From positions 1 through 32,419 of the forward strand of contig BQIW01000053.1 in the NCBI GenBank assembly GCA_021604105.1: a DNA stretch of 32,419 bases. Direction: 5' to 3'. The notes below the pieces were generated by a model that searched no databases, was not told the DNA's origin, and was given only the letters and a program-made list of their open reading frames with translations. The translations under genes were made by a program, and so were the position numbers. Below are positions 369 to 28,376 of the stretch, piece after piece. This DNA is from Nitrospirales bacterium (GTDB lineage: Bacteria; Nitrospirota; Nitrospiria; Nitrospirales; UBA8639). Numbering within the stretch: the stretch's first letter is position 1; each line of letters begins with the position of its first letter.

Positions 369-1058
369 TTATAACAGTTCACTGACTTTGGGACGGGGGC
401 TTTGCAAAGGAAGGCCAGTGACCATTAAATATATTTCTTCAGCAATGTCGGTCACATGATCGCCGGCGCGTTCCAACCCTTTAGCGATAAATAATAATTG
501 AGTCCCGTCACCGATGTTCCTGGATTCCTGGCTCATCATGCGGAGCAGGTGCTCAAACAGGTTGGCATAGACGGTGTCCAATTCGGCGTCATCCGTCCAA
601 GCAACATTGGCCAACGGGGCATTATGGTGAATATAGGACTCCGTGACCTGGGACAACATGGATTGGATGCGTTTCCCCATCCATAGAAATTCTTCAGCAA
701 ATTCGGCAGAGATGGGCCGTGCCAAATGCCGGCTGCGTTTGGCGGTATTTTTTGCGTAATCACCGATCCGTTCCAAATGAATCGCGATGCGAGAAGCCGC
801 CAGAATAGCTCGCAGGTCGTCCGCCATCGCCTGTTGACGGGCCAGAGTGCGGGTCGTATGGGTATTGATTTTTTCTTGCAGGGCATCTGCAATACGGTCG
901 TTGGCAATAACCTGCTCCGCCAAGTCGGCATTGTTCTCCACCAAGGCGGTCAGCGCACGGTGCAGTTGCTCCGACACGTGGTTTGAGAGAGCCACAATCT
1001 CCTGCCGAAGGGTGTTCAAATCTTCGTCAAAGATTCGTAGGGTGTGTTGATTGTTCAT
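369..1058 (-). CDS. phoU: Phosphate transport regulator PhoU
   Basis: This 229-aa protein has the normal length of PhoU, the cytoplasmic two-domain helical protein that links the Pst transporter to PhoR signalling and limits phosphate uptake. Each half carries the expected E/DxxxD metal-cluster motif: HLERIGDYAKN near residues 94-104 and GLERAGDHVTDIAE near 194-207. The ATG at 1058 is preceded by AAAGGA at good spacing. It is the last gene of the pstS-C-A-B-phoU operon, 32 bp after pstB, which is its classical position. The second Pst system further upstream has no PhoU of its own, so this one might serve both. No PhoB or PhoR gene is present in the window. Confidence 0.93.
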   Translation of the reverse strand: MNNQHTLRIFDEDLNTLRQEIVALSNHVSEQLHRALTALVENNADLAEQVIANDRIADALQEKINTHTTRTLARQQAMADDLRAILAASRIAIHLERIGDYAKNTAKRSRHLARPISAEFAEEFLWMGKRIQSMLSQVTESYIHHNAPLANVAWTDDAELDTVYANLFEHLLRMMSQESRNIGDGTQLLFIAKGLERAGDHVTDIAEEIYLMVTGLPLQSPRPKVSELL

Positions 1059-1090
1059 GATGATCCTTTCGAAATCGGTGTTCCGCCGGT

Positions 1091-1924
1091 TTATCCAAAC
1101 CGGCCGGTGATATAATCCCGCGTCAGCGTTTCTTGCGGCGTGGTAAACAGTTCTCCTGTTGGAGCGAATTCAATGAGTTTGCCCAGATGCATGTAGGCGG
1201 TAAAGTCCGAAATCCGGGCCGCCTGCTGCATGTTGTGGGTGACAATGATCACCGTGAACCGATGGCGAATTTCTGTAATCAGATCTTCAACTTTGGCGGT
1301 GGCAATGGGGTCCAATGCCGAGGTGGGTTCATCCAGTAAGAGGATTTCAGGTTGTGGGGCCAGGGCCCTGGCGATACATAATCGTTGCTGCTGTCCGCCT
1401 GAGAGGCCGTAGGCCGATTGTGAAAGGCGATCCTTCACTTCCTCCCACAAGGCCGCATCCCGCAAGGCCTGTTCCACACGGTCGCTCAACAGTTTTTTGT
1501 TCTGAACGCCCTGAATCCGAAGGCCGGCCGCTACATTTTCAAAGATGGATTTGGGAAAAGGATTGGGTTTTTGGAACACCATCCCGATTCGAAGCCTGAC
1601 CATGAAGGGATCAAGGTCGATGAGATTGTGATTTTCAGGAAACAGACAAATTTCTCCACTATACCGGTTGCCCGCATAGAGATCATGCATACGGTTAAAC
1701 GACCGGAGGAGGGTGCTTTTCCCGCACCCGGATGGACCGATCAACGCGGTGACCTTCCGATAGGCAATCGACAAGGTGATCTCCTTCAAGGCTTGGGTTT
1801 CACCATACCAAAAGCTGAGTTTCCGAACTTCCGCCGCCAGGGATTCCCGTTGGGTATTGGGGGTAGGCTCGGTCTTTGGCGACAGTTGCGTGACGTGCTG
1901 GTCATGAAAACTCTTCTGTGTCAT
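1091..1924 (-). CDS. pstB: Phosphate ABC transporter ATP-binding protein PstB (system 1)
   Basis: This 277-aa ABC ATPase would energise phosphate import at the inner membrane with PstC and PstA. It shows a full set of motifs: Walker [10 protein letters not shown] (about residues 63-71), Q-loop FQKPNPFP, which is typical of PstB, signature LSGGQQQR, Walker [14 protein letters not shown], and the switch histidine in VTHN. An N-terminal extension of about 30 residues precedes the ABC fold. The ATG is preceded by AAGGA about 10 bases upstream. It lies 42 bp after pstA and 32 bp before phoU in one operon. Identification is secure. Confidence 0.95.
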
Positions 1925-1966
1925 ATGGGTGGTTCCTTGGTTGGGCTAAGAGGTCATCACGGATGG

Positions 1967-2905
1967 CTAACGAATCTGGCGGCGTAAATGATAGCGCAAC
2001 CAGATGGCTATTCCATTCATCGCCAACGTCATCAACATCAGAATGACGCCGGCCGCTGCGGCATTGATATGAAATTCTGCCTGGGGTCGTGAGACCCAAT
2101 TGAACATTTGAATAGGCATAATGGTAAATGGGCTTTCGAGCCATTCAAAATTGATAAACGGAGGACTGGACTGAATTGGCGAAGGGGGGAGAAAGGCGAT
2201 AAAGGTCAAGGCCCCGATGGTGATGACCGGCGCGGCTTCTCCAATCGCTCGAGCCAAACCCACAATGGTTCCAGTCAAAATGCCCGACCGCGCAGCGGGC
2301 AGCACATACAGGCGAACGGTCTGCCATTTGTCAGCACCCAGCCCATAGGCGGCTTCCCGTAAGTCAAGGGGAATACCACGAATGGCTTCACGGGTGGACA
2401 CAATAATGACCGGCAAAATCAGTAATGCGAGGACCAGGCCAGCCGTCAGGATCGTCTCTCCCAGCCCGAACCCGTGGATGAACAGGCCAAGTGCTAATAA
2501 CCCGTAGATGATGGAAGGTACACCTGCCAGATTGCTGACGTTGATTTCAATGAAATCCGTGATCCAGTTGCGTGCAGCATATTCCTCCAAATACACCCCC
2601 GCTCCAACTCCCAGCGGGATCGCGATGCCCGCGGTGACCAGCATGACCAGGATTGTGCCGACCCAAGCAGAAACAATTCCTGCTTGAAGAGGATGGCGTG
2701 AGGGAAAGTTGAGATAGAAATCCGGGTTTATGAGTCTTGGCCATCCGCCCACGATCAGGTCGATGACCACAGCCGCCAATAAGCTCATTGCGACGATCAG
2801 CACCGAAATCCCGATGCCGGCCATGACCAGATCTGTCCGGCGGTTGGCATCAACAATACCGGTCAAGTTGGGAAGAGTGGCTTGAGACATTTCGGCATTC
2901 ACCAT
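1967..2905 (-). CDS. pstA: Phosphate ABC transporter permease PstA (system 1)
   Basis: This 312-aa integral membrane protein has about six hydrophobic helices and the binding-protein-dependent permease (EAA) loop, REAAYGLGADKWQTVRLYVLPAARSGI, written here as two adjoining parts around residues 184-210, which docks on PstB. The region ARAIGEAAPVITIGA is characteristic of PstA. Its ATG shares one base with the pstC stop codon (TAATG), so translation is probably coupled. An SD-like GGAGG lies inside the end of pstC. Length and position are typical. It forms the membrane channel with PstC. Confidence 0.95.
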   Translation of the reverse strand: MVNAEMSQATLPNLTGIVDANRRTDLVMAGIGISVLIVAMSLLAAVVIDLIVGGWPRLINPDFYLNFPSRHPLQAGIVSAWVGTILVMLVTAGIAIPLGVGAGVYLEEYAARNWITDFIEINVSNLAGVPSIIYGLLALGLFIHGFGLGETILTAGLVLALLILPVIIVSTREAIRGIPLDLREAAYGLGADKWQTVRLYVLPAARSGILTGTIVGLARAIGEAAPVITIGALTFIAFLPPSPIQSSPPFINFEWLESPFTIMPIQMFNWVSRPQAEFHINAAAAGVILMLMTLAMNGIAIWLRYHLRRQIR

Positions 2906-3858
2906 TAATACACCTCCTTAAAGCGTCGCCGAAGGAAGAACCCGATCAAATTGAAAGTCAGCGTGATGACAAACAACACGATTCCGGCCGCAAACACGGA
3001 TTGGTAGGCGATAGAGTCATGAGGCAAATCCCCCATGGCCATTTGCACGATGTAGGCCGTAATCGTTGCAGCCCCTTCGGTGGGGTTGAATGAAAAATTG
3101 GGGTTTTGCCCGGCTGCGATGGCGACGACCATGGTTTCTCCCACGGCTCGTGACATGCCAAGAATAAAGGCGGCGGTGATACCGGAAAAAGCGGCAGGGA
3201 CCACGACCCGCATGGCGACCCGGAAGCGAGAGTAGCCCAAGGCGTATCCGGCCTCACGCAGGCCGGATGGGACTGCCCGCATGGCATCTTCGCTGACTGA
3301 GGCGGTGTAGGGAAGAATCATGATTCCCATGACCATGCCTGGTCCAAGCATGTTAAACCCTTCCAATCCGGGAATGAAGGTTTGCAAAAGGGGCGTAAAA
3401 AAGAGAAGAGTGAAATAACCATAGACCACGGTCGGAACTCCTTCGAGCAACTCCAGACAGGGTTTGACGGTCTCGCGAACTTCCCTTCGTGCATATTCGC
3501 TGAGGTAGATAGCCAAGGCCAATCCCGCCGGAATAGAGACGGCCAACGCGATCCCTGCCACGGTCACCGTCGCCGAAACCAGAGTCATCACCCCGAAGTG
3601 GGCATTCTCAAAAACAGGAGTCCACTGTGTGTCTGTCAGAAAATCCAGGAGAGCGATCTGAGCAAAGAACCCCATGGATTCCGTGACCAAGACATACACG
3701 ATTCCCAATGTCACAAACACTGAGCTCGCGGCTGCGATCAATAGACACCCGCCGGCGAAAGAGCCCCATAATGCGCGGCGGCGGAGGAAGCTTTCGCTGG
3801 CGCGCATGGGAGATCCTGCAGGGCCGGCAGGGGTTAAGGACGATGGTAATGTTGGCAT
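2905..3858 (-). CDS. pstC: Phosphate ABC transporter permease PstC (system 1)
   Basis: This 317-aa membrane permease is the partner of PstA. After an N-terminal cytoplasmic stretch of about 30 residues comes a first helix (WGSFAGGCLLIAAASSVFV), then the usual PstC core with the EAA-type loop LREAGYALGYSRFRVAMRVVVPA and the conserved SRAVGETMVVAIAAG. The chosen ATG at 3858 has GGAG about 11 bases upstream. An internal ATG at residue 18 with AGGA 6 bases before it is an equally good start. An 85-bp gap separates it from pstS and contains a GC-rich hairpin (3893-3910). The stop overlaps the pstA start. Confidence 0.94.
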   Translation of the reverse strand: MPTLPSSLTPAGPAGSPMRASESFLRRRALWGSFAGGCLLIAAASSVFVTLGIVYVLVTESMGFFAQIALLDFLTDTQWTPVFENAHFGVMTLVSATVTVAGIALAVSIPAGLALAIYLSEYARREVRETVKPCLELLEGVPTVVYGYFTLLFFTPLLQTFIPGLEGFNMLGPGMVMGIMILPYTASVSEDAMRAVPSGLREAGYALGYSRFRVAMRVVVPAAFSGITAAFILGMSRAVGETMVVAIAAGQNPNFSFNPTEGAATITAYIVQMAMGDLPHDSIAYQSVFAAGIVLFVITLTFNLIGFFLRRRFKEVY

Positions 3859-3892
3859 GTGATGTCAGCTCCAGATGAAATGCCCTTTACCA

Positions 3893-3910
3893 GGGGTGGC
3901 TGGCCACCCC
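3893..3910 (-). terminator. Intercistronic hairpin between pstS and pstC
   Basis: GGGGTGGC and GCCACCCC form a GC-rich inverted repeat with a very short centre (in practice a 7-bp stem with loop CTGG). It lies 34 bp after the pstS stop and before pstC. It has no U-run, so it is more likely a partial terminator or RNA-stabilising hairpin than a full stop. Such hairpins often keep binding-protein mRNA more abundant than that of the downstream permeases. Confidence 0.55.
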
Positions 3911-3943
3911 CGGAAAGGACCGATCCGATTGTTCCGATGTCCC

Positions 3944-4942
3944 TTACTGAGGAACCCTGGCCAGCAGTTCTTCGATTCCCACGCCCACTTCAGCCCCGTG
4001 GAATACCGTACCGGTAAGACCTTTTGTGAATTTGTTCAACGCCATGGTGTAGGCCTTTGAGGGCAGCGGCACGTATCCCACTTCTCGAACGAGCGTTTGA
4101 GCATTGTCGTTGTTCAAATAGAACTCGATGAATCGCTTGACATGGGGTTTTTTGTTCACGGCATCTTTATTCACGTACACAAAAATGGGTCGCGATAACG
4201 GTTGGTACGTGGCATTTTTGGCATGCTCCACAGAGGGACCCACTGGTTTCCCGCCTTTCCAGGAAATGGGCACGGCTTTTAATTTGTCCTTGTTTTCCTC
4301 GTAATACGCCAAGCCGAAAAATCCCATGGCATTGAGGTCATTCGTGACCCCTTGAACCAGGACATTGTCGTCTTCGCTTGCGGTGAAATCTCCGCGGGAA
4401 CTTTTTCCCTCAACGATGGCCTCGACAAAATAATCGTATGTTCCAGAATCGGTTCCCGCGCCGAACAGTTTCAAGGGCCGGTCGGGAAAGCTGCTGCGAA
4501 TTTGATTCCAATTGTTCACCGTGTCCTGGGCCTCAGGTTCCCAGGCCTTTTTCAACTCCTCGACAGTCAAATGGTTTACCCAGTCGTTTTTGGGATTCAC
4601 CACGACCGTCAACGCATCCAGGGCGATCGGTAACTCGATATAAGCAACTTTGTTTTCCCGGCACAGTGTAATTTCCGACTCCTTAATTGGACGGGAAGCG
4701 TCGGCGATATCCGTTTCACCCCGACAGAATTTTTTAAAGCCGCCGCCCGTGCCGGAAATGCCCACGGTCACCATTGTTTTCCCTCGTTCGGCCTTTTGAA
4801 ATTCCTCAGCCATCGCTTCGGTAATTGGAAAGACGGTGCTGGATCCGTCTATTTTGACCAGGTCGCGGGCTGACACCGTGGATGCCGAAGCAGTAATAGT
4901 CAGGGCGATGGCCGTCATCGCAAAGTGGACTGGAATTTTCAT
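3944..4942 (-). CDS. pstS: Periplasmic phosphate-binding protein PstS (system 1)
   Basis: This 332-aa protein has a cleavable signal peptide (about residues 1-25, ending SASTVSA). The phosphate-binding loops of the PstS family are visible: GSSTVFP near residue 33, [11 protein letters not shown] near 62, DASRPI near 80, and [10 protein letters not shown] near 162. The length is normal. It captures phosphate in the periplasm and delivers it to PstC/PstA. The start ATG has a GGAGGG-type SD (read as GGAGGGTTCAC before ATG). It is the first gene of the pst operon and is preceded by a Pho box about 95 bp upstream, so induction under phosphate limitation is expected. Confidence 0.95.
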
Positions 4943-5262: not shown

Positions 5263-6636
5263 TTAGAACGATACGTCCCATTGTAGACGGACCCGTTGTT
5301 CATGTTGGTTTTGACCAGCGGGTTGGGCCAGTGTGAGCCAGGACCCATCGAGTGTGATCTTGTTTTTATGTCCTGCGAAGAACCAGTTGATGGCCGTGGT
5401 ATATTCCTGCCGCCGGTCATTGGGCGCGGAGATGTTGGGGTCGACGAATGCATAGCGGAAGGCCACTTCCAACGGTTTTGGCACCGCCGGAATGAGACCA
5501 TGGGGGAAATACCCGATCTGTGAATAACTTCCCATCATGTTGGTCTTATGGCCCGGTGCCCCCTCTGCATAGCTGTTGTCCTTGACCTCTTTCCAATGGT
5601 ATTCATGTTGAATGGACAGCCCCCGCCATTTGAACGCGAATTCCTCCACCATGCCCTGCACCCGGTATTGCCCAGCTTTCGCGTTGGAATCAGAGGTGTA
5701 GGGCACGCCGGCCGAATTGTCCTCGGGCAACGTACCGCACCCGCTTGAGGACCACCGGGTACATTTGCCGATCGTGGTGTAGGCCCCGAAGGCTACGCTT
5801 CCCGTGGGTAGCTCATGGAACTCCACATCACTTTGTGACCATTTCAGATCCCGGCCCAAAAAGTTCCATTGGTATCGTCCGAAATACATCATGTTTGCGT
5901 CGTCGTTGGCTTCTCCCCGGCCGGACCCCGTAAAGACACCGGCATAATACCGGGAGTCAAAAGCCGTACCGGGTGCCACATGGCCATACAGCATGGCTCC
6001 AACCTGTCGGTCGATAGTAAAAATGTCATTGACGATCGATCGTTCGACAAATTGTTGGGCGCCTGAGGAGTCTCTCCGTTCGCGGTTGTAGTCGACTTTC
6101 CATTGTCCGAGTTGAAGGGAGAGGAATTTGAATTTCTCCAGCGAGATCCGCCAGTCGATTAATCTGGTCGATCCGGGTGACCCACCGGCATTGGAAGTGG
6201 ATTGCAAGTCCAACTCGAAATAGTACTTGATCCAGGGGCGATAACCATGTCCGCCGATTTTCATTCGAACCCGGCGAAGTTCCAGAGTACTCTGGGGACC
6301 ATCATTAAAATCAGCAGCAGATACCGGATTTCCCCTTGTGGGATACGTAAAGCGGCCCTGGAACCGCCATTGAATTTGAGTGGCAAATTTGCCGTCTTTC
6401 GTTTTAAATTCAAACCCCTTACTGCCCCAACCCACATCAACGGGAAATTTATCGTCAAACGCTTTTTGTTGCTCCAAAGCCTTTTTCTCTTCTGCCGCCT
6501 CAATCTTGATCCAATCTTCTTTCGTAAGGATCTCTTTTTCGCGCAAGAGATCGATCAGGGCGTCACTTGCCTGGACATTCGGCTGAAAAAACAGGCTTAG
6601 GCACGCCACGGTAGTCAACAACCAAAATACTTTCAT
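5263..6636 (-). CDS. OprP/OprO-type phosphate-selective porin 1
   Basis: This 457-aa outer-membrane beta-barrel protein belongs to the Porin_O_P family (Pseudomonas OprP/OprO, phosphate and polyphosphate channels). A signal peptide ends at about residue 23 (QPNVQA). A short N-terminal helical/coiled segment rich in E and K (about 28-60) is followed by barrel strands starting at VDVGWGSKGFEF. The protein ends in an aromatic residue (VRLQWDVSF), the outer-membrane assembly signal. AGGAGG sits 8 bases before the ATG. It lies just upstream of the Pho-controlled pst operon, with its own terminator between. Residues 161-457 differ from porin 2 at only six positions, while the earlier part diverges strongly. 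Phosphate specificity is inferred from family and context. Confidence 0.9.
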   Translation of the reverse strand: MKVFWLLTTVACLSLFFQPNVQASDALIDLLREKEILTKEDWIKIEAAEEKKALEQQKAFDDKFPVDVGWGSKGFEFKTKDGKFATQIQWRFQGRFTYPTRGNPVSAADFNDGPQSTLELRRVRMKIGGHGYRPWIKYYFELDLQSTSNAGGSPGSTRLIDWRISLEKFKFLSLQLGQWKVDYNRERRDSSGAQQFVERSIVNDIFTIDRQVGAMLYGHVAPGTAFDSRYYAGVFTGSGRGEANDDANMMYFGRYQWNFLGRDLKWSQSDVEFHELPTGSVAFGAYTTIGKCTRWSSSGCGTLPEDNSAGVPYTSDSNAKAGQYRVQGMVEEFAFKWRGLSIQHEYHWKEVKDNSYAEGAPGHKTNMMGSYSQIGYFPHGLIPAVPKPLEVAFRYAFVDPNISAPNDRRQEYTTAINWFFAGHKNKITLDGSWLTLAQPAGQNQHEQRVRLQWDVSF

Positions 6637-6871
6637 TCAAACAACCTCCTATTAAAAGTCCGTGTATGTGGTTTGTTATTCGGCGGAAATTTTTTCTTAT
6701 CTTGGAATGGGAGAGTACTCCGAGTTTGTTACGAGGGAGTTAAGCTGGGGTCAAGGAGAAGTAAAAAATGGGGAATGGGATCAGAGTGTCGTTCTACTGG
6801 ATGGGAGCAACTTCAATGAGTGCGTTCGAGGAGAAATGGGTGTGGCAGAGAAAGAGAGGTGGACAGAGAAA

Positions 6872-7086
6872 GGGAGTGTTGAATAATAAGGATGTTCAAG
6901 GGCAAATTTGCGCAGGATGCGACTACTCATCAAAGGCTACGGGTCGGTTCAAAAAAGCATGCCCTGAGTCTTCCCGAAGGGTCCGTCCAGCAAGGCCGCA
7001 GCCGTTTTTACGCGCGGAGCGTAGGCTTCGTACGTGAGCACGGGAAAATGGCGAGAGCGCCGCTGGCGGCTTTTTTCAACAGACCC
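6872..7086 (+). mobile_element. Miniature inverted-repeat element, copy 1 (215 bp)
   Basis: This non-autonomous element is bounded by imperfect terminal inverted repeats: left end GGGAGTGTTGAATAA, and right end whose complement is GGGTCTGTTGAAAAA. It is flanked by the direct repeat AGAAA at 6867-6871 and 7087-7091. It matches copy 3 (28162-28376) over the whole 215 bp with about 12 mismatches counted by eye. Inside are a GCCGCTGGCGGC palindrome next to a T-run and several short hairpins. It encodes no transposase, so it must have been moved by one supplied in trans. It lies between porin 1 (upstream side) and the 3' end of porin 2; the remainder of 6637-6866 shows no gene. Confidence 0.85.
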
Positions 7087-7135
7087 AGAAAGTGTTCAGG
7101 CAGGGACGTGGAGGGAGGAGGTATGAACTAAAATT

Positions 7136-8518
7136 TTAAAACGATACGTCCCATTGTAGACGGACCCGCTGCTCATGTTGATTTTGACCTGCGGGTTGAG
7201 ACAGCGTGAGCCAGGATCCATCGAGTGTGATCTTGTTTCTATGTCCTGCGAAGAACCAGTTGATGGCCGTGGTATATTCCTGCCGCCGGTCATTGGGCGC
7301 GGAAATGTTGGGGTCGACAAACGCATAGCGGAAGGCGATCTCTAGGGGTTGGGGGACTGCCGGAATGAGGCCATGGGGGAAGTACCCGATTTGTGAATAA
7401 CTTCCCATCATGTTGGTCTTATGGCCAGGCGCCCCCTCTGCATAGCTGTTGTCCTTGACCTCTTTCCAATGGTATTCATGTTGTATGGACAGCCCCCGCC
7501 ATTTGAACGCGAATTCCTCCACCATGCCCTGAACCCGGTATTGCCCGGCTTTCGCGTTGGAATCAGAGGTGTAGGGCACGCCGGCCGAATTGTCCTCCGG
7601 CAACGTACCGCACCCACTTGAGGACCACCGGGTACATTTGCCGATCGTGGTATAGGCCCCGAAGGCCACGCTTCCCGTGGGTAGCTCATGGAATTCCACA
7701 TCACTTTGTGACCATTTCAGATCCCGCCCTAAAAAGTTCCATTGGTATCGTCCGAAATACATCATGTTCGCGTCGTCGTTGGCTTCTCCTCGGCCGGACC
7801 CCGTAAAGACACCGGCATAATACCGGGAGTCAAAAGCCGTACCGGGTGCCACATGGCCATACAGCATGGCTCCAACCTGTCGGTCGATGGTAAAGATTTC
7901 ATTGACGATCGATCGTTCGACGAATTGTTGATTGCCCGAAGAGTCTCTTCGTTCGCGGTTGTAGTCGACTTTCCATTGTCCGAGTTGAAGGGAGAGGAAT
8001 TTGAATTTCTCCAGCGAGATCCGCCAATCGAGTAATTGGGGACTTTCACTGGAACTGCCGGATTCCGAGGTGGACTGCCAATTCATTTCGAAATAATATC
8101 TAATCCAGGGTTGAAAGCCATGCCCGCCGATTTTCATCCGAACCCGTCGAAGTTGAAAGGTACTTTGTGGGTCTTCATGAAAATCATCTGCAGAGATTGG
8201 ATCCTCGTCCGTGGGATAGGACCAGCGACCTTGAAATCGCCATTGAATTTGGGTGGAAAATTTGCCGTCCTTGGTTGAAAATTCAAAACCTCTTATCCCA
8301 TATCCCACGGTAACCGGAAATTCTTGGTCCATACGGGTATTGAGCTCTTGTTCTCTTTTTTCCTGCTCCGCCTGAATGCGGACCCAGTCCTCCTTGGTAA
8401 TGATTCCTTTTTCCAGCAACACATTCTCCAGACTGTCCTCATAGAGAGGGTCCATGGCCCAGGCTTGCGTTAGGGTTAACAGCCCATAGCATATCAATGC
8501 CATAAGAATGCGTTTCAT
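7136..8518 (-). CDS. OprP/OprO-type phosphate-selective porin 2
   Basis: This 460-aa outer-membrane porin is a paralogue of porin 1. I place the start at the ATG at 8518, because it directly begins a good signal peptide (MKRILMALICYGLLTLTQAWA) and has GGAAG upstream. The longer frame would begin at a TTG at 8569. The mature N-terminus has an E/K/Q-rich helical stretch, then barrel strands beginning near FPVTVGYGIRGFEF, and the same C-terminal VRLQWDVSF. It is the last gene of the predicted ArsR-pstS2-C2-A2-B2 operon, 86 bp after pstB2, which suggests an outer-membrane channel dedicated to that transporter. From residue 164 on it is nearly identical to porin 1. Confidence 0.9.
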   Translation of the reverse strand: MKRILMALICYGLLTLTQAWAMDPLYEDSLENVLLEKGIITKEDWVRIQAEQEKREQELNTRMDQEFPVTVGYGIRGFEFSTKDGKFSTQIQWRFQGRWSYPTDEDPISADDFHEDPQSTFQLRRVRMKIGGHGFQPWIRYYFEMNWQSTSESGSSSESPQLLDWRISLEKFKFLSLQLGQWKVDYNRERRDSSGNQQFVERSIVNEIFTIDRQVGAMLYGHVAPGTAFDSRYYAGVFTGSGRGEANDDANMMYFGRYQWNFLGRDLKWSQSDVEFHELPTGSVAFGAYTTIGKCTRWSSSGCGTLPEDNSAGVPYTSDSNAKAGQYRVQGMVEEFAFKWRGLSIQHEYHWKEVKDNSYAEGAPGHKTNMMGSYSQIGYFPHGLIPAVPQPLEIAFRYAFVDPNISAPNDRRQEYTTAINWFFAGHRNKITLDGSWLTLSQPAGQNQHEQRVRLQWDVSF

Positions 8519-8604: not shown

Positions 8605-9474
8605 TTACCCTCTGGTCCCGGAAATATAGGCACCCGTGAGTTCATGTATGGGATTCTCAAAAATGGCTTGGGCAGGGCCATATTCCACCAGTGTACCGGA
8701 CCCTTCAAACGACCAGAAAAACGCGATGTGGTCGGCAATGCGCCGGGCCTGGGCTAAGTTGTGGGTAACAATCATGATCGTAACATGACCTCGTAAGCTG
8801 ACGATCAGATCCTCAACGATTCCACTGGACAGGGGATCCAGCGCACTGCATGGCTCATCAAGCAGAAGAAGATCCGGAGACAACACCAGGGCTCTGGCCA
8901 GGCAGAGCCGTTGTTGTTGTCCTCCCGACAAGGCTTGAGCGGGATGGTCAAGCCGGTCTTTGACTTCATGCCAGAGCCCAACTTGCTGGAGGACATTTTC
9001 CATGGCGGAGTGTAATACGGTGCGATGATGCGTTCCGTGTTCGCGGAGAGGGAGTTCCAGGTTTTTGCGAATGGAAAAGGGAAAAACGGTGGGTTTTTGA
9101 AAAATCATTCCCACAGCACGACGCAATTGGAGAAGATCGGTTGTGGGGGCGAGGATATCCAATTCATTCATGTGCAGGTTCCCGGAGACCTGGCATCCTG
9201 GGATCAAATCCGTTAAGCGATTGAGGCTCATGAGAAAACTGGTTTTTCCACAACCTGAAGGCCCCACTAACGCCGTTATGCATCCTCGATTGATTTCAAG
9301 AGTCACATTCCGAAGCGCCTGATGATCCTGATAGGCGATAGAAAGGTTTTTCGCGCGAATATGAGTGACGGGCTCACAGCAGAGTTCGTCGGATGGATAG
9401 GGGACCCATGGTCTGAGCCCTGCCGGTTTGCCGGGCTCAGGATTTATGCGGAAAGTCGGTTGCATGATGTCCAT
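8605..9474 (-). CDS. pstB: Phosphate ABC transporter ATP-binding protein PstB (system 2)
   Basis: This 289-aa ABC ATPase has Walker A GPSGCGKTS, a PstB-type Q-loop FQKPTVFP, signature LSGGQQQR, Walker B LLLLDEPCSALDP and the switch histidine in VTHN. A poorly conserved N-terminal extension of about 45 residues is rich in proline. It overlaps the end of pstA2 by 31 bp, so the two are probably translated together. No strong ribosome-binding site is visible, and an ATG at residue 4 is an alternative start. It is clearly a PstB relative but quite divergent from the system-1 copy, so it is not a recent duplicate. It should power import through PstC2/PstA2. Confidence 0.9.
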   Translation of the reverse strand: MDIMQPTFRINPEPGKPAGLRPWVPYPSDELCCEPVTHIRAKNLSIAYQDHQALRNVTLEINRGCITALVGPSGCGKTSFLMSLNRLTDLIPGCQVSGNLHMNELDILAPTTDLLQLRRAVGMIFQKPTVFPFSIRKNLELPLREHGTHHRTVLHSAMENVLQQVGLWHEVKDRLDHPAQALSGGQQQRLCLARALVLSPDLLLLDEPCSALDPLSSGIVEDLIVSLRGHVTIMIVTHNLAQARRIADHIAFFWSFEGSGTLVEYGPAQAIFENPIHELTGAYISGTRG

Positions 9475-10298
9475 CGTGAGGCAATCCAGGAAGAAGAAAC
9501 GTTAATGATGAACACAAGGCCCACCAAGACAAGAGCGGTCGCATAGGCGTGGGGGTTCCCGCCAGCCACATTCATGGCTAAATCGTAAATGTGTACTGCG
9601 AGAGATCGTCCCGAGTCCATCAAGGATTCCGGCATCCGGGCCACGTAGCCACTGGTAAAAATCAAGGCTGCCGTTTCGGCAACGGCTCGTCCAAGTCCGA
9701 GGATGATTCCTACGAGCAGGCCGGGGAGGGCTGCAGGAAGGAGAATCCTTCGAATAGTCGTCGTTTTTGAAAGGCCAAGGGCTGCTGCGGATAATCGTTG
9801 TTCCTGGGAAATGGCGTGGAAACTTTCCTCAACCGTGCGAATCAAAATTGGTAACACCATGCAGGCTAAGGTGAGACCTCCCGAGAGAATAGAGAATCCT
9901 AATCCCAGGATCTGGCAGAATAGGGCGTTGCCAAACAGGCCAAAGACAATGGAGGGCACGCCTGCGAGTACGTCCAGCGAGCCCCGGATCAGTCGCCCCA
10001 GAACATGATCGTGACGGGTGTATTCCGACAGAAACAGTGCCGTCCCCAATCCCATGGGGACGGCTGTCCCCATGCATACTCCCACAATCAGCAGGGTGGA
10101 TATGAGGATGGGGCCGATCCCGCCTTCCCGCCCTGCATTCTGTGGAGCAGAGAACACAAAGCTGAATGAAAGTTGGTCCCAACCATTCCAGAGTAAATCA
10201 CCCATTATCCAGATAAAGGGAATGGTGACCATGGTCGCCCCTATCCATATGAGGACGCTGAGACAGTATTCTTGAAGTTGCCTACTTTGCAGATACAT
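9444..10298 (-). CDS. pstA: Phosphate ABC transporter permease PstA (system 2)
   Basis: This 284-aa membrane protein has about six hydrophobic segments, beginning at WIGATMVTIPFIWIMGDLLW. The permease docking loop LSAAALGLSKTTTIRRILLPAALPG replaces the usual EAA by SAAALG, and is followed by GRAVAETAALIFTSG, the PstA hallmark. The start ATG lies inside the end of pstC2 (17-bp overlap) and the gene overlaps pstB2 at its 3' end, so the operon is very compact. It is only loosely similar to PstA of system 1. Confidence 0.9.
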   Translation of the reverse strand: MYLQSRQLQEYCLSVLIWIGATMVTIPFIWIMGDLLWNGWDQLSFSFVFSAPQNAGREGGIGPILISTLLIVGVCMGTAVPMGLGTALFLSEYTRHDHVLGRLIRGSLDVLAGVPSIVFGLFGNALFCQILGLGFSILSGGLTLACMVLPILIRTVEESFHAISQEQRLSAAALGLSKTTTIRRILLPAALPGLLVGIILGLGRAVAETAALIFTSGYVARMPESLMDSGRSLAVHIYDLAMNVAGGNPHAYATALVLVGLVFIINVSSSWIASRWTSCNRLSA

Positions 10299-11169
10299 AG
10301 GTGTTTCGATGTCGTAGGGCCTCTGCCGTGCTGACGACCAGGGCCACGACTCCCATAAGGAAGAGCCCGCTCATGAATAATGCTGCACGGTGGTCGCCCA
10401 ACGCATAAGCCATTTCCAGAGCAATGTTTGCGGTCAGGGTTCTGACCGGATCAAAGAGGTGGGATGGAGTTTGTACGACGTTTCCACAGACCATCAGAAC
10501 GGCCATAGTTTCCCCGAGCGCCCGGGCCAAACCCAAAAGGATGCCAGTGAAGAGTCCCATCCTGGTGGTGGGAAGAATCACATGCCAAATCATCGACCAT
10601 CGGCTGAATCCTAAGGCTGAGCTAGTATGAATCAGGGCGATGGGAACGTGGGCCAGGCTCGCATGGGACACTAACATGATGGTGGGCATGATCATCAGAG
10701 TCAGGATGAGTATGCCACTTATCAGACTTGGGCCTGGTGGATGCCAACGGCCGATGATCGGAACCAGAACCATGAGACCCCAAAAGCCGAAGACGACCGA
10801 AGGAATTCCGGCTAGGAGTTCAACCATGCGGCGGTACCATCGGGCAAGCAGAGGAGGCGCATAAAAATGACAAAAGAGCGCCGAGAGAATTCCGAAGGGG
10901 GAGGCAAACAGCACCGCGCCGGTGGTCGCCAGGAGACTGCCCCAAACCATCGATGTCAGTTGATACGAGTTCTCGGTCGGATACCAGTCCGGATCGCTGA
11001 AAAAGCGTGACAGCCCGATGTTTTGAAGGGCCGGCCAGGATTCGTGAAAGAGAAACGCTACGACCAGAAATAAGAGGCCTCCTGCCGTCAATGCAAGAAG
11101 TCTCACGCTCCCTAAGAGCAGGAAATCACCCCTGGAGCGGGACAAAGTATTGCTGGAGAATGAGATCAT
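10282..11169 (-). CDS. pstC: Phosphate ABC transporter permease PstC (system 2)
   Basis: This permease is about 295 aa from the first ATG (11169). The frame continues upstream to a TTG at 11238, and another TTG at about 11142 would start just before SRSRGDFLLLG, so the start is uncertain. The first helix is VRLLALTAGGLLFLVVAFLF in part. The docking loop SALGFSRWSMIWHVILP and the motif ARALGETMAVLMVCG are typical of PstC. The chosen start lies within the last 44 bp of pstS2, so translation is probably coupled. It pairs with PstA2 to form the membrane channel. Confidence 0.88.
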   Translation of the reverse strand: MISFSSNTLSRSRGDFLLLGSVRLLALTAGGLLFLVVAFLFHESWPALQNIGLSRFFSDPDWYPTENSYQLTSMVWGSLLATTGAVLFASPFGILSALFCHFYAPPLLARWYRRMVELLAGIPSVVFGFWGLMVLVPIIGRWHPPGPSLISGILILTLMIMPTIMLVSHASLAHVPIALIHTSSALGFSRWSMIWHVILPTTRMGLFTGILLGLARALGETMAVLMVCGNVVQTPSHLFDPVRTLTANIALEMAYALGDHRAALFMSGLFLMGVVALVVSTAEALRHRNTYVSAK

Positions 11170-11968
11170 GGACCTGAGGTGATTGCGCGAAATCAATAAA
11201 GGTTTTAACGAGTCCTGCGGGAGGAGATTTTGTGACAAGGGTGAGTGGACGAGAGAGAGGAAATCTCCCTTCCCGGACCGTTTCGAGAGTGGCCGGAATA
11301 TGTTGCAGGGCTAACAATCGGATCCCTATGCCATGGGCCGCATCATACTGCGCCGTTCCAATGGAGACATAGCCGATCGCATTGGGGTTGCCGGCCACGG
11401 TTTTAATACCCTGCTCGTTGTCTCCAATGACCACATGAGCGTGAATATCGCGATTGGATAGGTGAAAATAGTCTAGAAATAATTCCAGGGTGGAACGCCC
11501 TTCTGCTTTATTCACCACGGTAATCCCCGAATCAGGACCGCCAACGTGACTCCAATTCGTGCTGCTTCCGGTATAGATAGACCGGATTTGGTCATCGGTT
11601 AATTCCTGGACGGGATTTGATGTGTGGAGGATGATCGTGATGCCGTCATGGGCAATGACTGATCCATTCAAATGTTGTTCTTGAGATTTCAGGGCACGAG
11701 AGGCCATACCAATGTCAGCCAATCCATTCACGGTATCGGCAATGCCACGAGAGGAACCTCCGGTTTGAACGTCCACCCGGACCTTCGGGTGAAGGGTCTC
11801 AAAGCGTTTGCCGATTTCGGATACCAAGGGGGCCATGGTACTGGAGCCGGTGATGATCAGTCTTTCTCCTTCTGCCCGGGCGCTCGGATATTCCCATGCC
11901 CATGCCCAGAGCAGAGGACCAACCAGGAAGACTCTCAGTGTGAAAAAGAAAAAAGTGGAGAAAGGCAT
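11126..11968 (-). CDS. pstS: Periplasmic phosphate-type binding protein PstS2 (system 2)
   Basis: This protein is about 280 aa, counted from the first ATG at 11968; the open frame starts at a TTG 9 bases earlier. A signal peptide ends near residue 30 (YPSARA). PstS-family loops are present: GSSTMAPL, QTGGSSRGIAD and GMASRALK. The third anion-binding loop reads KAEGRSTLELF where classical PstS has DSGT, so the SGT triplet is replaced. I recall EGRST-type loops from a subgroup of PstS-like proteins, but ligand preference cannot be read from sequence. It follows the ArsR gene by 37 bp and heads the transporter genes. There is no clear ribosome-binding site, so coupling to the ArsR gene is possible. 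Confidence 0.88.
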   Translation of the reverse strand: MPFSTFFFFTLRVFLVGPLLWAWAWEYPSARAEGERLIITGSSTMAPLVSEIGKRFETLHPKVRVDVQTGGSSRGIADTVNGLADIGMASRALKSQEQHLNGSVIAHDGITIILHTSNPVQELTDDQIRSIYTGSSTNWSHVGGPDSGITVVNKAEGRSTLELFLDYFHLSNRDIHAHVVIGDNEQGIKTVAGNPNAIGYVSIGTAQYDAAHGIGIRLLALQHIPATLETVREGRFPLSRPLTLVTKSPPAGLVKTFIDFAQSPQVHDLILQQYFVPLQG

Positions 11969-12005
11969 AAGGTGCAACAGGATTTCTGCGTTGAAGAAGA
12001 ACGCG

Positions 12006-12305
12006 TTAATCGAAGGAAATTTTGCAGCACCCCAGATGGATGGATTTGGCCGTGGTTGAATCTGAAACGCTTTCCGGCACTTGGTAAATCATGGTTTTCC
12101 CCTCTCGAGATGATTCCACTAAGCCTGCATCTCGAAGAATGGCCAAATGGTGGGACAATAAACTCTGTTCAACATCCAATTCATCCATAAGTTCTCCGAC
12201 ATTTTTCGGTCCTGACATGAGGGTTTCAATCACCCCCAGACGGGTTGGGTCTGACAAAACTTTCAGTTTATCCGCACAAGCGGGGGAAATAATTTTTGTT
12301 TTCAT
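12006..12305 (-). CDS. ArsR/SmtB-family transcriptional regulator
   Basis: This 99-aa winged-helix repressor spans the normal ArsR fold: KLKVLSDPTRLGVIETLM (helices 1-2), then VGELMDELDVEQSLLSHHLAILRDAGLVESSREGK in two parts (recognition helix and wing, residues 36-70). The classical arsenic site ELCVCDL in helix 3 is absent (GELMDEL instead). Cysteines occur at 10, 93 and 94; the C-terminal pair resembles the Cys95/Cys96 site of the Acidithiobacillus ferrooxidans ArsR. It is first in a predicted operon with pstS2-C2-A2-B2 and porin 2, and divergent from another phosphate-binding protein. It probably represses one or both sides. The ATG at 12305 lacks an obvious SD sequence. Confidence 0.88.
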   Translation of the reverse strand: MKTKIISPACADKLKVLSDPTRLGVIETLMSGPKNVGELMDELDVEQSLLSHHLAILRDAGLVESSREGKTMIYQVPESVSDSTTAKSIHLGCCKISFD

Positions 12306-12678
12306 GGAAATTGATAGAAAATTTTGAAATGTAAAAATGTATTTAATATGACTGCATTTTCATATGAATGAAATTTAATTTGAATCCTTGTTGTGAGTCA
12401 AGGTTTCATGGAAGCCGTCGTCCCCATATCCCGGGATAGCCTGATATTCATCGAAGAGCAATAGATAACATACGCAGAAAAAGATAAATTATAGCAGGGG
12501 GCCCTGGATGAAAATTTACATAAATGTAACACCCGAGAAATAAATCCGACACAATACCAAGCTAGCCTCAATCCTAAAGTCATAAAAAATGAGATAATGA
12601 GGGTACCTTCCTTCTTACATTGGAACCGGTGGTTTTGGGATGATGAAGCATATTAATCCTTACTTAGGAGAAACACAC
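12306..12678. promoter_or_regulatory. Divergent control region between arsR-pst2 and the third PstS gene
   Basis: This AT-rich region of about 370 bp has no gene. Candidate operators are an inverted repeat ATATG-N10-CATAT at 12346-12365 overlapping the palindrome TTCATATGAA (12359-12368), about 40-60 bp upstream of the ArsR start, and TTACAT-AA-ATGTAA at 12516-12529. A further ATGTAA lies at 12329-12334. Dyads of this size and AT content are typical of ArsR-family operators. A possible -10 for the plus-strand gene is GATAAT near 12590. No Pho box was found here. Confidence 0.5.
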
Positions 12679-13719
12679 GTGAAGTCAACAAACATAAAGC
12701 TGCTGAAGTCCAGTGTATGGCTGGGAGTGATGTTGGTTGGGACACCGGTGATGGGAGAACACGACCTGTTTCCCCGTATCGACCAACAGATTCCCCATTA
12801 CTCTTCGGAGATTGGAGTGTCCGGGAAGATCAAAATAATTGGTTCCAATACCATGGACCCGCTTCTGAAAAAATGGAAAGACCGGCTGGGAAAAGTTCAA
12901 CCTCATATGGACATTACTCTGGATACGAAGGGGTCCAATATCGGATTCGAGTCTTTGATGAGTGGGAAGACCCATATCGCGGCCATGTCCCGTCCGCTGA
13001 CAAATGAGGAAATCGAGGAATTCACCACACGGGTCGGGTACCCGCCCACTTCGGTGCCCGTTGCCGTGGATGCGTTTGCAGTCTTTGTGCATAAGGATAA
13101 TCCGCTCGATCAAATCACCTTTCAACAATTAGATGCCGTATTCTCGTCTGAGAGGCGACGAGGGGCTCAGGAGCCTCTGGACCATTGGGGCCAACTGGGG
13201 CTTTCCGGCACATGGGAACAAGCGCCTATCCTTGCGCAGATTCGGGATTCCAATTCAGGTACCGGACAGTTTTTCAGGGATTTAGTCCTCCTGGGTGGGG
13301 AAGATAAAGAGACGAGTGTTAAACAGCCTGGTGCCGCGTCGGTTGTTCATGCCGTTATGAATGATCCCTATGCCATCGGCTATAGTGGAATTGGGTATCG
13401 CACCGATTCCGTCAAACCACTGCGCGTGGCTGGCGAGCAAGGGGAACCGTTTATCGAGGCGACATTTGAAACTGCCGGCAATGGATCCTATCCACTTCGG
13501 CGCGTGCTCTATCTGTATTTGAACCATCCTTCACATGCCGAGGATTCTCCTCTTCTGTCGGAAATCATTAAATTTGCTGTGAGTCAAGAAGGCCAGCAGG
13601 TAGTTGTCCAATCAGGTTTTTTCCCGTTACCCACCCAAGACCTGGTTGCCTTGTATGCTACCTGGTCCAAGCCGATTACTTCCGCAGCTAGCACTGCGAA
13701 CCCCCAAAACATCCGATAA
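12679..13719 (+). CDS. Solitary phosphate-binding protein of the PstS family (third copy)
   Basis: This protein is 346 aa from the GTG at 12679, chosen because AGGAG lies 8 bases upstream and a good signal peptide follows at once (helix WLGVMLVGTPVMG). An in-frame ATG at 12640 would add 13 hydrophilic residues. Binding loops of the PstS superfamily are seen: IIGSNTMDPLL, LDTKGSNIGFESLMSG, AAMSRPL and RDSNSGTGQFF. The conserved YAIGYSGIGYRT follows. It has no permease genes beside it on its own strand. It may supply another affinity class to either Pst transporter or act as a sensor. It shares the control region with the ArsR gene. A decayed relative lies 2 kb downstream. Confidence 0.87.
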   Translation: MKSTNIKLLKSSVWLGVMLVGTPVMGEHDLFPRIDQQIPHYSSEIGVSGKIKIIGSNTMDPLLKKWKDRLGKVQPHMDITLDTKGSNIGFESLMSGKTHIAAMSRPLTNEEIEEFTTRVGYPPTSVPVAVDAFAVFVHKDNPLDQITFQQLDAVFSSERRRGAQEPLDHWGQLGLSGTWEQAPILAQIRDSNSGTGQFFRDLVLLGGEDKETSVKQPGAASVVHAVMNDPYAIGYSGIGYRTDSVKPLRVAGEQGEPFIEATFETAGNGSYPLRRVLYLYLNHPSHAEDSPLLSEIIKFAVSQEGQQVVVQSGFFPLPTQDLVALYATWSKPITSAASTANPQNIR

Positions 13720-15538: not shown

Positions 15539-15890
15539 TCAGTTCATGTTTTAAGGAAAGATTCCTTTATGGCACCTCTTTACAATGGGATGCGTTGGTT
15601 TTCTCTGAAAGACGCGGAGGGTCTTTGGAGTTTTCCGACACCTCGTGGCAGTTGGGTCTATTCGGGATTTGGGAACAAGCCCCAGTTGTTTCTCAAATTC
15701 GAGATGCCCAATCATGTGCCGGACAGTTTCCCAAAGGTTTCGTCTTACCGGGCAGAAAAGATAGGGCTTTGGTCTGGTTCAGCCAGGTGTTGCGTCTGTT
15801 GTCAATGCGATAACGAATGGTCCTTTTGCTTTAGGCTATGGTGGAATCGGCTATCGCACAAATTTCGTTATGTCATTGCGGCGGGAATGA
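15539..15890 (+). pseudogene. Decayed PstS-family gene fragment
   Basis: Three reading frames in succession match residues in the middle of the intact PstS paralogue at 12679-13719. SVHVLRKDSF (from 15539) resembles AVFVHKDNPL. After a frameshift, LQWDALVFSERR...WEQAPVVSQIRDAQSCAGQF (about 15568-15780) matches the region with WEQAPILAQIRDSNSGTGQF, 13 of 20 identical. After another shift, QPGVASVVNAITNGPFALGY... (15780-15890) matches with 22 of 34 identical. Both the signal-peptide end and the C-terminal third are missing. It is a dead duplicate. The gene-free stretch before it (15088-15538) shows only the upstream hairpin of the neighbouring gene. Confidence 0.8.
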
Positions 15891-15934: not shown

Positions 15935-16122
15935 GGGAGTGTTGAATAATAATTTCCAAGGGCATATTGACCCACAGGCACATTGCATAATAGAGGCCTC
16001 GGGGCGGTTCAAAAAAGTTCGTCCAGCAAGGCCACAGTCATTTTTGCGCGCAGAGCGTACTTCCAGTACGTGAGCACGGAAAAATGGCGAGAACGCCGCT
16101 GGCGGCTTTTTTCAACAGCCCC
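15935..16122 (+). mobile_element. Miniature inverted-repeat element, copy 2 (188 bp variant)
   Basis: It has the same ends as the other copies (GGGAGTGTTGAATAA on the left, TTCAACAGCCCC on the right). It is flanked by ATTAG at 15930-15934 and 16123-16127. It is shorter than copies 1 and 3, mainly because of a 24-bp internal deletion after the CGGTTCAAAAAA segment, and is more divergent in its left third. The right-hand duplication contains the TTA that is the stop codon (complement) of the transglutaminase gene. It encodes no protein. Confidence 0.82.
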
Positions 16123-16123
16123 A

Positions 16124-28158: not shown

Positions 28159-28161
28159 GTT

Positions 28162-28376
28162 GGGTCTGTTGAAAAAAGCCGCCAGCGGCGTTCTCGCCAT
28201 TTTCCCGTGCTCACGTACTACGCGTACGCTCCGCGCGTCAAAACGGCTGCGGCCTGGCTGGACGGACCCTTCGGGAAGACTCAGGGCATGCTTTTTTGAA
28301 CCGACCCGGAGCCTTTGATGAGTAATCTTATCCTGTGCAAATTTGCCCTTGAACATTCTTATTATTCAACACTCCC
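28162..28376 (-). mobile_element. Miniature inverted-repeat element, copy 3 (215 bp)
   Basis: It is in inverted orientation relative to copies 1 and 2 and has the same 215-bp length as copy 1. It is flanked by AAGTT at 28157-28161 and 28377-28381. Its right end begins 4 bp after the stop codon of the radical SAM gene, and the duplication overlaps that codon. It carries no transposase. The stretch beyond it to 28623 has no gene, only the leader of the DUF5069 gene. Confidence 0.85.

Follow-up and report, generated by a model that had tools for sequence, protein, structure and literature searches.

The two neighbouring porin genes in the window, which is the whole 32,419-nucleotide stretch of Nitrospirales DNA analysed here, are with a probability of about 93% two old tandem phosphate-type porins in which homologous recombination, probably non-reciprocal (gene conversion), has recurred across approximately the final two thirds of the gene. 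The N-terminal parts of the upstream copy (porin u) and the downstream copy (porin d) are separate lineages that predate the split of the species compared. The C-terminal parts are common to both copies within a species, and the tract boundaries vary by species, lying mostly between codons 95 and 178.

Both genes are located on the minus strand. The open reading frames of porin d (positions 5263 to 6636, 457 amino acids) and porin u (7136 to 8518, 460 amino acids) match the Pfam family Porin_O_P (PF07396) with E-values of 4.6e-15 and 1.4e-14, and their scores of 56.2 and 54.6 bits, against a gathering cut-off of 20.9, place them in this family. In a codon alignment of d with u, codons 1-160 are 64.1% identical at the nucleotide and 55.7% at the amino acid level, a divergence as high as the earlier note had described for the first 160 residues, while codons 161-457 are 94.3% and 98.0% identical. 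Beyond approximately residue 160 that note had estimated about six differences in 297 positions, and exactly six were counted. The homogenised part extends from codon 161 to the stop in d (5263 to 6156) and, as delimited by identity and break position, from codon 164 to the stop in u (7136 to 8029); the unconverted parts are 6157 to 6636 in d, comprising the signal peptide, periplasmic helices (codons 24-63) and the first strands and loops, and 8030 to 8518 in u. The abrupt change in DNA identity had been placed near 6156 and 8030, which agrees exactly with the start of d codon 161 (6156) and is one base off for u codon 164 (8029). Under a two-rate model the best single break was obtained at d codon 162, with an LLR of 100.8 (100 codon shuffles reached no more than 10.3), so that it lies within the coding sequence as proposed. 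Similarity had also been said to end directly after the stop codons, and indeed nothing alignable was found downstream of them, with 17 of the first 60 bases matching ungapped, approximately the level of chance. About 51 differences between u and d are scattered along the C-terminal part, which is not uniform, as a denser synonymous patch is present at codons 376-391. At 94% identity, conversion of this part is not very fresh.

The porins lie between two Pst sets encoded on the same strand. The second set (pstB2, pstA2, pstC2 and pstS2; 8605 to 11977, assigned by NCBIfam) is located directly upstream of u in an order that is kept in relatives, and porin u begins 86 nt behind pstB2. Downstream of d, positions 369 to 4942 harbor the first set (phoU, pstB1, pstA1, pstC1 and pstS1), of which pstS1 and phoU were profile-scanned; the names pstB1, pstA1 and pstC1 are our assumption from position and the genes' own sequence. 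In the fetched stretches of two relatives, G001 (L090) and G002 (L089), pstS1C1A1B1 was not found next to porin d, and partial phoU-like matches were obtained instead. The intergenic region between u and d (6637 to 7135) contains a conserved upstream block of d, TTGACC ... CTTAAC-N5-CGTAACAAA, and an inserted dispersed repeat (6872-7090). The CTTAAC-N5-CGTAACAAA portion is positioned at 6725-6744 on the minus strand, and the block, which may be Pho-box-like, is kept in the window's own genome (G000), G001, G002 and G014 and partly in G019 and G009. Because the pattern was derived from the sequence itself, its single match in the window is not independent evidence, and only its conservation counts. 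The earlier note had further claimed that upstream control was preserved; the upstream contexts of u and d do differ, and from this we infer that separate control may have been maintained. A gene for an ArsR/SmtB-type regulator (12006-12305, minus strand) immediately precedes the second Pst set and porin u, an order kept in many relatives. A third PstS-like gene (12640-13719, plus strand) is oriented divergently from the ArsR-pst set, and pstS3-like fragments that look like a decayed duplicate follow 2 kb further on (15583-15881, plus strand).

The comparison covered 20 genomes of the genus including G000, an assembly of 217 contigs, and porin matches were obtained in 17 of them. The near relatives in the named collection belong to Nitrospirales and Nitrospirota and are mostly metagenome assemblies. 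G000, G001, G002 and G014 each carry two complete copies side by side. G005 carries one whole and one cut copy, the locus RBC_NOB5 a whole u and a cut d, G008 non-overlapping porin pieces and G011 two copies on different contigs, and several other relatives show a single copy at the same place. The pair is homogenised in three of the four genomes that carry both genes complete and adjacent, G000, G001 (96.4% C-terminal identity) and G002 (90.5%). In G001 and G002 the break was detected at codon 178 with LLRs of 144.7 and 78.6 (shuffle maxima 11.6 and 8.5); one ancestral boundary common to all species is rejected, as the breaks differ. In G014 no break was obtained (LLR 6.1, shuffle maximum 8.0) and identity is approximately 72% throughout (72.1% in the C-terminal part), demonstrating that this pair is not homogenised, and the G005 pair, of which one copy is truncated, is 75% identical in the C-terminal part. 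Orthologues are 86.2-93.5% identical in this part, below the within-genome paralogues of G000 and G001. In G002, the paralogues are less alike than the orthologues shared with G001 (u with u 93.5%, d with d 91.5%), and a recent event of its own is thus not demonstrated for G002. Paralogues therefore exceed orthologues in likeness over a bounded tract in G000 and G001 and do not do so in G002 and G014.

Trees were built from either side of the break, without four short fragments (G008_x, G018_x, G009_x and G015_x); G005_a was left out of the N-terminal tree only, and NOB5_d and G008_u of the C-terminal tree only. With codons 1-160, one clade united the u genes of G000, G001, G002 and G008 (support 100/100). 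A second clade held the d genes of G000, G001 and G002 (96/99) and was joined with the single genes of G019 and G009 (95/93). With codons 178-457, the d and u genes of G001 paired (98/99), those of G000 paired more weakly (76/95), and the copies of G001 and G002 grouped together (96/98). A clade of u and d of G000 was rejected in the N-terminal tree (p-AU 1.4e-37) and likewise in the corresponding protein tree (p 4.4e-6), and a clade of the three d genes was rejected in the C-terminal tree (p-AU 4.9e-60). When d and u of G002 were constrained to group, p was 0.47, and for G001_u with G002_u it was 0.054, so that neither grouping was rejected. The genes thus group by position in the first third, u with u and d with d, and by species in the last part, and the trees on either side of the break conflict in the way that conversion predicts.

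Selection alone, with a strongly constrained C-terminal barrel and an N-terminal part free to vary, would fit the low number of differing C-terminal residues (just 6 of 297) and a Porin_O_P match that covers mainly residues 115-429, but it is barely credible given the silent sites. Between codons 24-160 and 178-457 the pS of the paralogues drops (G000, 0.69 to 0.23; G001, 0.59 to 0.06; G002, 0.70 to 0.28), whereas among the orthologues of these three genomes it is alike in both parts (0.26-0.40 and 0.26-0.49). This demonstrates that the C-terminal part is not slow at silent sites and not merely constrained, but shared between the paralogues. Uniform synonymous divergence, named in the earlier note as the pattern that would speak for selection, is therefore absent, and the comparison in related genomes that it suggested agrees with conversion both here and in the conflicting trees. 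In addition, codons 161-177 of G001 and G002 are highly conserved yet saturated at silent sites, and selection alone does not account for the grouping of the C-terminal parts by species. In the six genes of the three species, 81 nucleotide differences are fixed between u and d in 158 N-terminal codons, none in the 17 middle and none in the 280 C-terminal codons, while sites that distinguish G000 from G001 and G002 and are common to both paralogues number 2, 1 and 29, respectively. A chimera or a collapsed repeat in the assembled contig is equally hard to believe. The window's genome is fragmented and contigs of G008, G009 and G018 end inside a porin gene; however, the two copies differ along the whole C-terminal part, and G001 and G002, which are single-contig genomes, have the same architecture, so that assembly does not account for it.

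A recent whole-gene duplication, after which one N-terminal part was exchanged for foreign sequence, would be consistent with the best N-terminal tree, in which the clade of u is not sister to that of d; a tree forced to unite u, d, G019 and G009 is 24 log units worse, although not rejected (p 0.08). Both N-terminal clades include G000, G001 and G002, which makes the N-terminal difference older than these species, and the 29 species-specific shared sites place the homogenisation of the C-terminal parts after the species split. As a single event can also not yield breaks at both codons 162 and 178 together with differing C-terminal ages in three species, this scenario is very improbable. Somewhat less remote, if still unlikely, is unequal crossing-over, in which expansion and contraction of an array would produce hybrid genes instead of conversion in place. 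One porin at the same place in several relatives would suit it, as would the mosaic of u and d in the single visible whole gene of G009. Nevertheless, the copy number is two in G000, G001, G002 and G014, and a crossover in the C-terminal part would leave a u-type N-terminal part behind pstB2. In G019, both the N-terminal part of the single gene and its upstream block are d-type, so that loss of u in G019 by a crossover between C-terminal parts was rejected as a misfit.

Further tracts were traced with 125 marker sites that consistently separate u from d in G001 and G002. The gene of G009 is d-type in the N-terminal part and carries the u-type state at 25 of the 27 sites between codons 137 and 169, where its close sister G019 is d-type, and G008_u carries a d-type tract in codons 95-118 (12 of 12 sites); neither was reached in 10000 shuffles. 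Within the window a mosaic junction is located in d codons 164-176 (6109 to 6147, minus strand), with u-type sites in codons 164-168 followed by d-type sites in 169-176, and u shows the same mosaic. In G000, d is u-type at 6 of 6 sites in codons 164-168 (0 of 10000 shuffles) and u is d-type at 5 of 5 sites in codons 169-172 (27 of 10000), and in both copies the sites in codons 169-176 are mostly d-type. In the simplest history, built on this handful of sites, u would first have acquired its C-terminal part from d, joined at 168/169, before d in turn regained the stretch from codon 162 onward from u. Exchange between u and d was repeated and probably went in both directions. In a patch of G000_u (codons 384-391) the silent sites are as in G019 and G009 and not as in G000_d; judged from these sites, exchange with copies of other strains may have occurred besides that within one chromosome, and the two look alike in the present data.

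The recombination would presumably be of the RecA type and intrachromosomal. Its 3' limit may be the stop codon, where homology ceases, and its 5' limit may be set by an identity too low for efficient pairing, in a variable loop (residues 144-157) and the next strand; a limit set in this way would tend to be reused. Longer tracts are probably eliminated by purifying selection, which would maintain the N-terminal helices specific to each paralogue as well as the separate expression of the two genes. Copy number and N-terminal parts are kept and the mosaics are compatible with non-reciprocal transfer, to which reciprocal exchange between sister chromosomes is a possible alternative.

An AlphaFold (AF2) model of d (pLDDT 84.7, pTM 0.77) predicts a signal peptide, helices at residues 22-33 and 39-63 and a barrel. 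The best Foldseek matches were OprP (2o4v, E 1.9e-18) and OprO (4rjw, E 4.4e-16), with TM-scores of 0.59-0.67, indicating a predicted OprP-like barrel fold. A phmmer search of the single protein against the PDB gave no match, while a profile search found OprP. In the model, the break is positioned in strand 158-169, right after the poorly predicted loop, which leaves the first barrel strands and two loops in the unconverted part. The earlier statement that recombination homogenised the barrel is thus supported with respect to conversion and too broad with respect to the barrel, inside which the break lies. Arg occupies the equivalents of OprP R34, R59, R60 and R133 in u as well as in d (hand alignment), and those of Tyr62 and Tyr114 are the invariant Arg124 and Lys180 (hand mapping from the profile alignment); we take the OprP residues compared to be those of the arginine ladder and of the binding site or filter. 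As these equivalents are the same in u and d across the nine copies inspected, a substrate-filter difference carried by the unconverted third was rejected as far as testable. We infer that the channel is the same and that the differences lie in the periplasmic segment and the loops. Read from the sequences, u and d may supply the two Pst uptake sets with one anion (phosphate) channel that is controlled in two different ways; for phosphate selectivity, the Pst neighbourhood is circumstantial evidence.

The most divergent part between u and d is the periplasmic helical segment (codons 24-63), which holds 19 of the 35 residues fixed between them in its 40 residues, while codons 64-160 hold 12. 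The segment is conserved within each type: G000_u and G001_u are identical at 40 of 40 residues despite 10 nucleotide changes, and the d copies at 35 of 40. By analogy, these helices might serve as an address of each paralogue that determines which porin self-assembles, or which Pst-linked periplasmic partner is served, with conversion keeping the channel identical and selection purging tracts that overwrite the address, a suggestion that we regard as speculative and rather doubtful. It is motivated by strand exchange of the amino-terminal segment of OprP, which stabilises the trimer according to the part of the source available (PMC4849052).

Segmental gene conversion between linked porin genes is already known from omp2a and omp2b of Brucella, and u and d are an unusually clear further case in Nitrospira-like bacteria. 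As far as the accessible text of the source describes it, the Brucella genes are likewise mosaics with a species-dependent degree of homogenisation and events within the coding sequence; in contrast to the direct repeats u and d, they lie in opposite orientation at a distance of approximately 830 bp, expression is reported for omp2b only whereas u and d both look intact, and some species are fully homogenised whereas here the first third is distinct in three compared species (PMC7050475). The pair also resembles OprP and OprO of Pseudomonas aeruginosa in fold, in Porin_O_P family and in forming a pair of related phosphate porins (putative ones for u and d), although identity to the d model is only 15-16%. 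Unlike OprP and OprO, u and d are identical at the mapped channel residues and have a helical N-terminal segment before the barrel; OprO/P heterotrimers are cited in the available part of PMC4849052. In long-lasting recurrent concerted evolution in prokaryotes, paralogues within a species are more alike than orthologues between species, a pattern shared by u and d. In the accessible part of that survey, the long-lasting cases belong to core pathways and complexes, outer-membrane protein genes are described as frequent among the short-term cases, and no porin pair was seen among the cases given (PMC6053082). A narrow search of the open-access literature found no paper on a phosphate-selective porin of Nitrospira.

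The pair is a clean natural experiment, with one gene segment evolving independently, the other in concert, and several separable tracts in sister species. Near-identical neighbouring porins need not signal a recent duplication, and it is in the short periplasmic helix that u and d really differ. Trees or abundance estimates derived from the C-terminal part will mis-assign the paralogues, and short-read assemblies tend to break there.

The repeat inserted between the porins is approximately 216 bp long and occurs in the window at 6872-7090 (plus strand) and 28161-28376 (minus strand), with partial copies at 16017-16123 and 15935-15968. It is located between the porins in G000 and, judged by eye and by length, absent there in G001, G002, G014, G005 and NOB5. 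An Rfam scan of the window at the gathering cut-off gave no match for it. By eye, its ends carry the short inverted repeats TGTTGAA and TTCAACA, and its plus strand folds better than shuffled sequences (z -2.9). The window's genome contains at least 40 copies with 93-100% identity (40 scored from 188-200 first-look candidates), and relatives of the repeat were detected in all 20 genomes of the genus.
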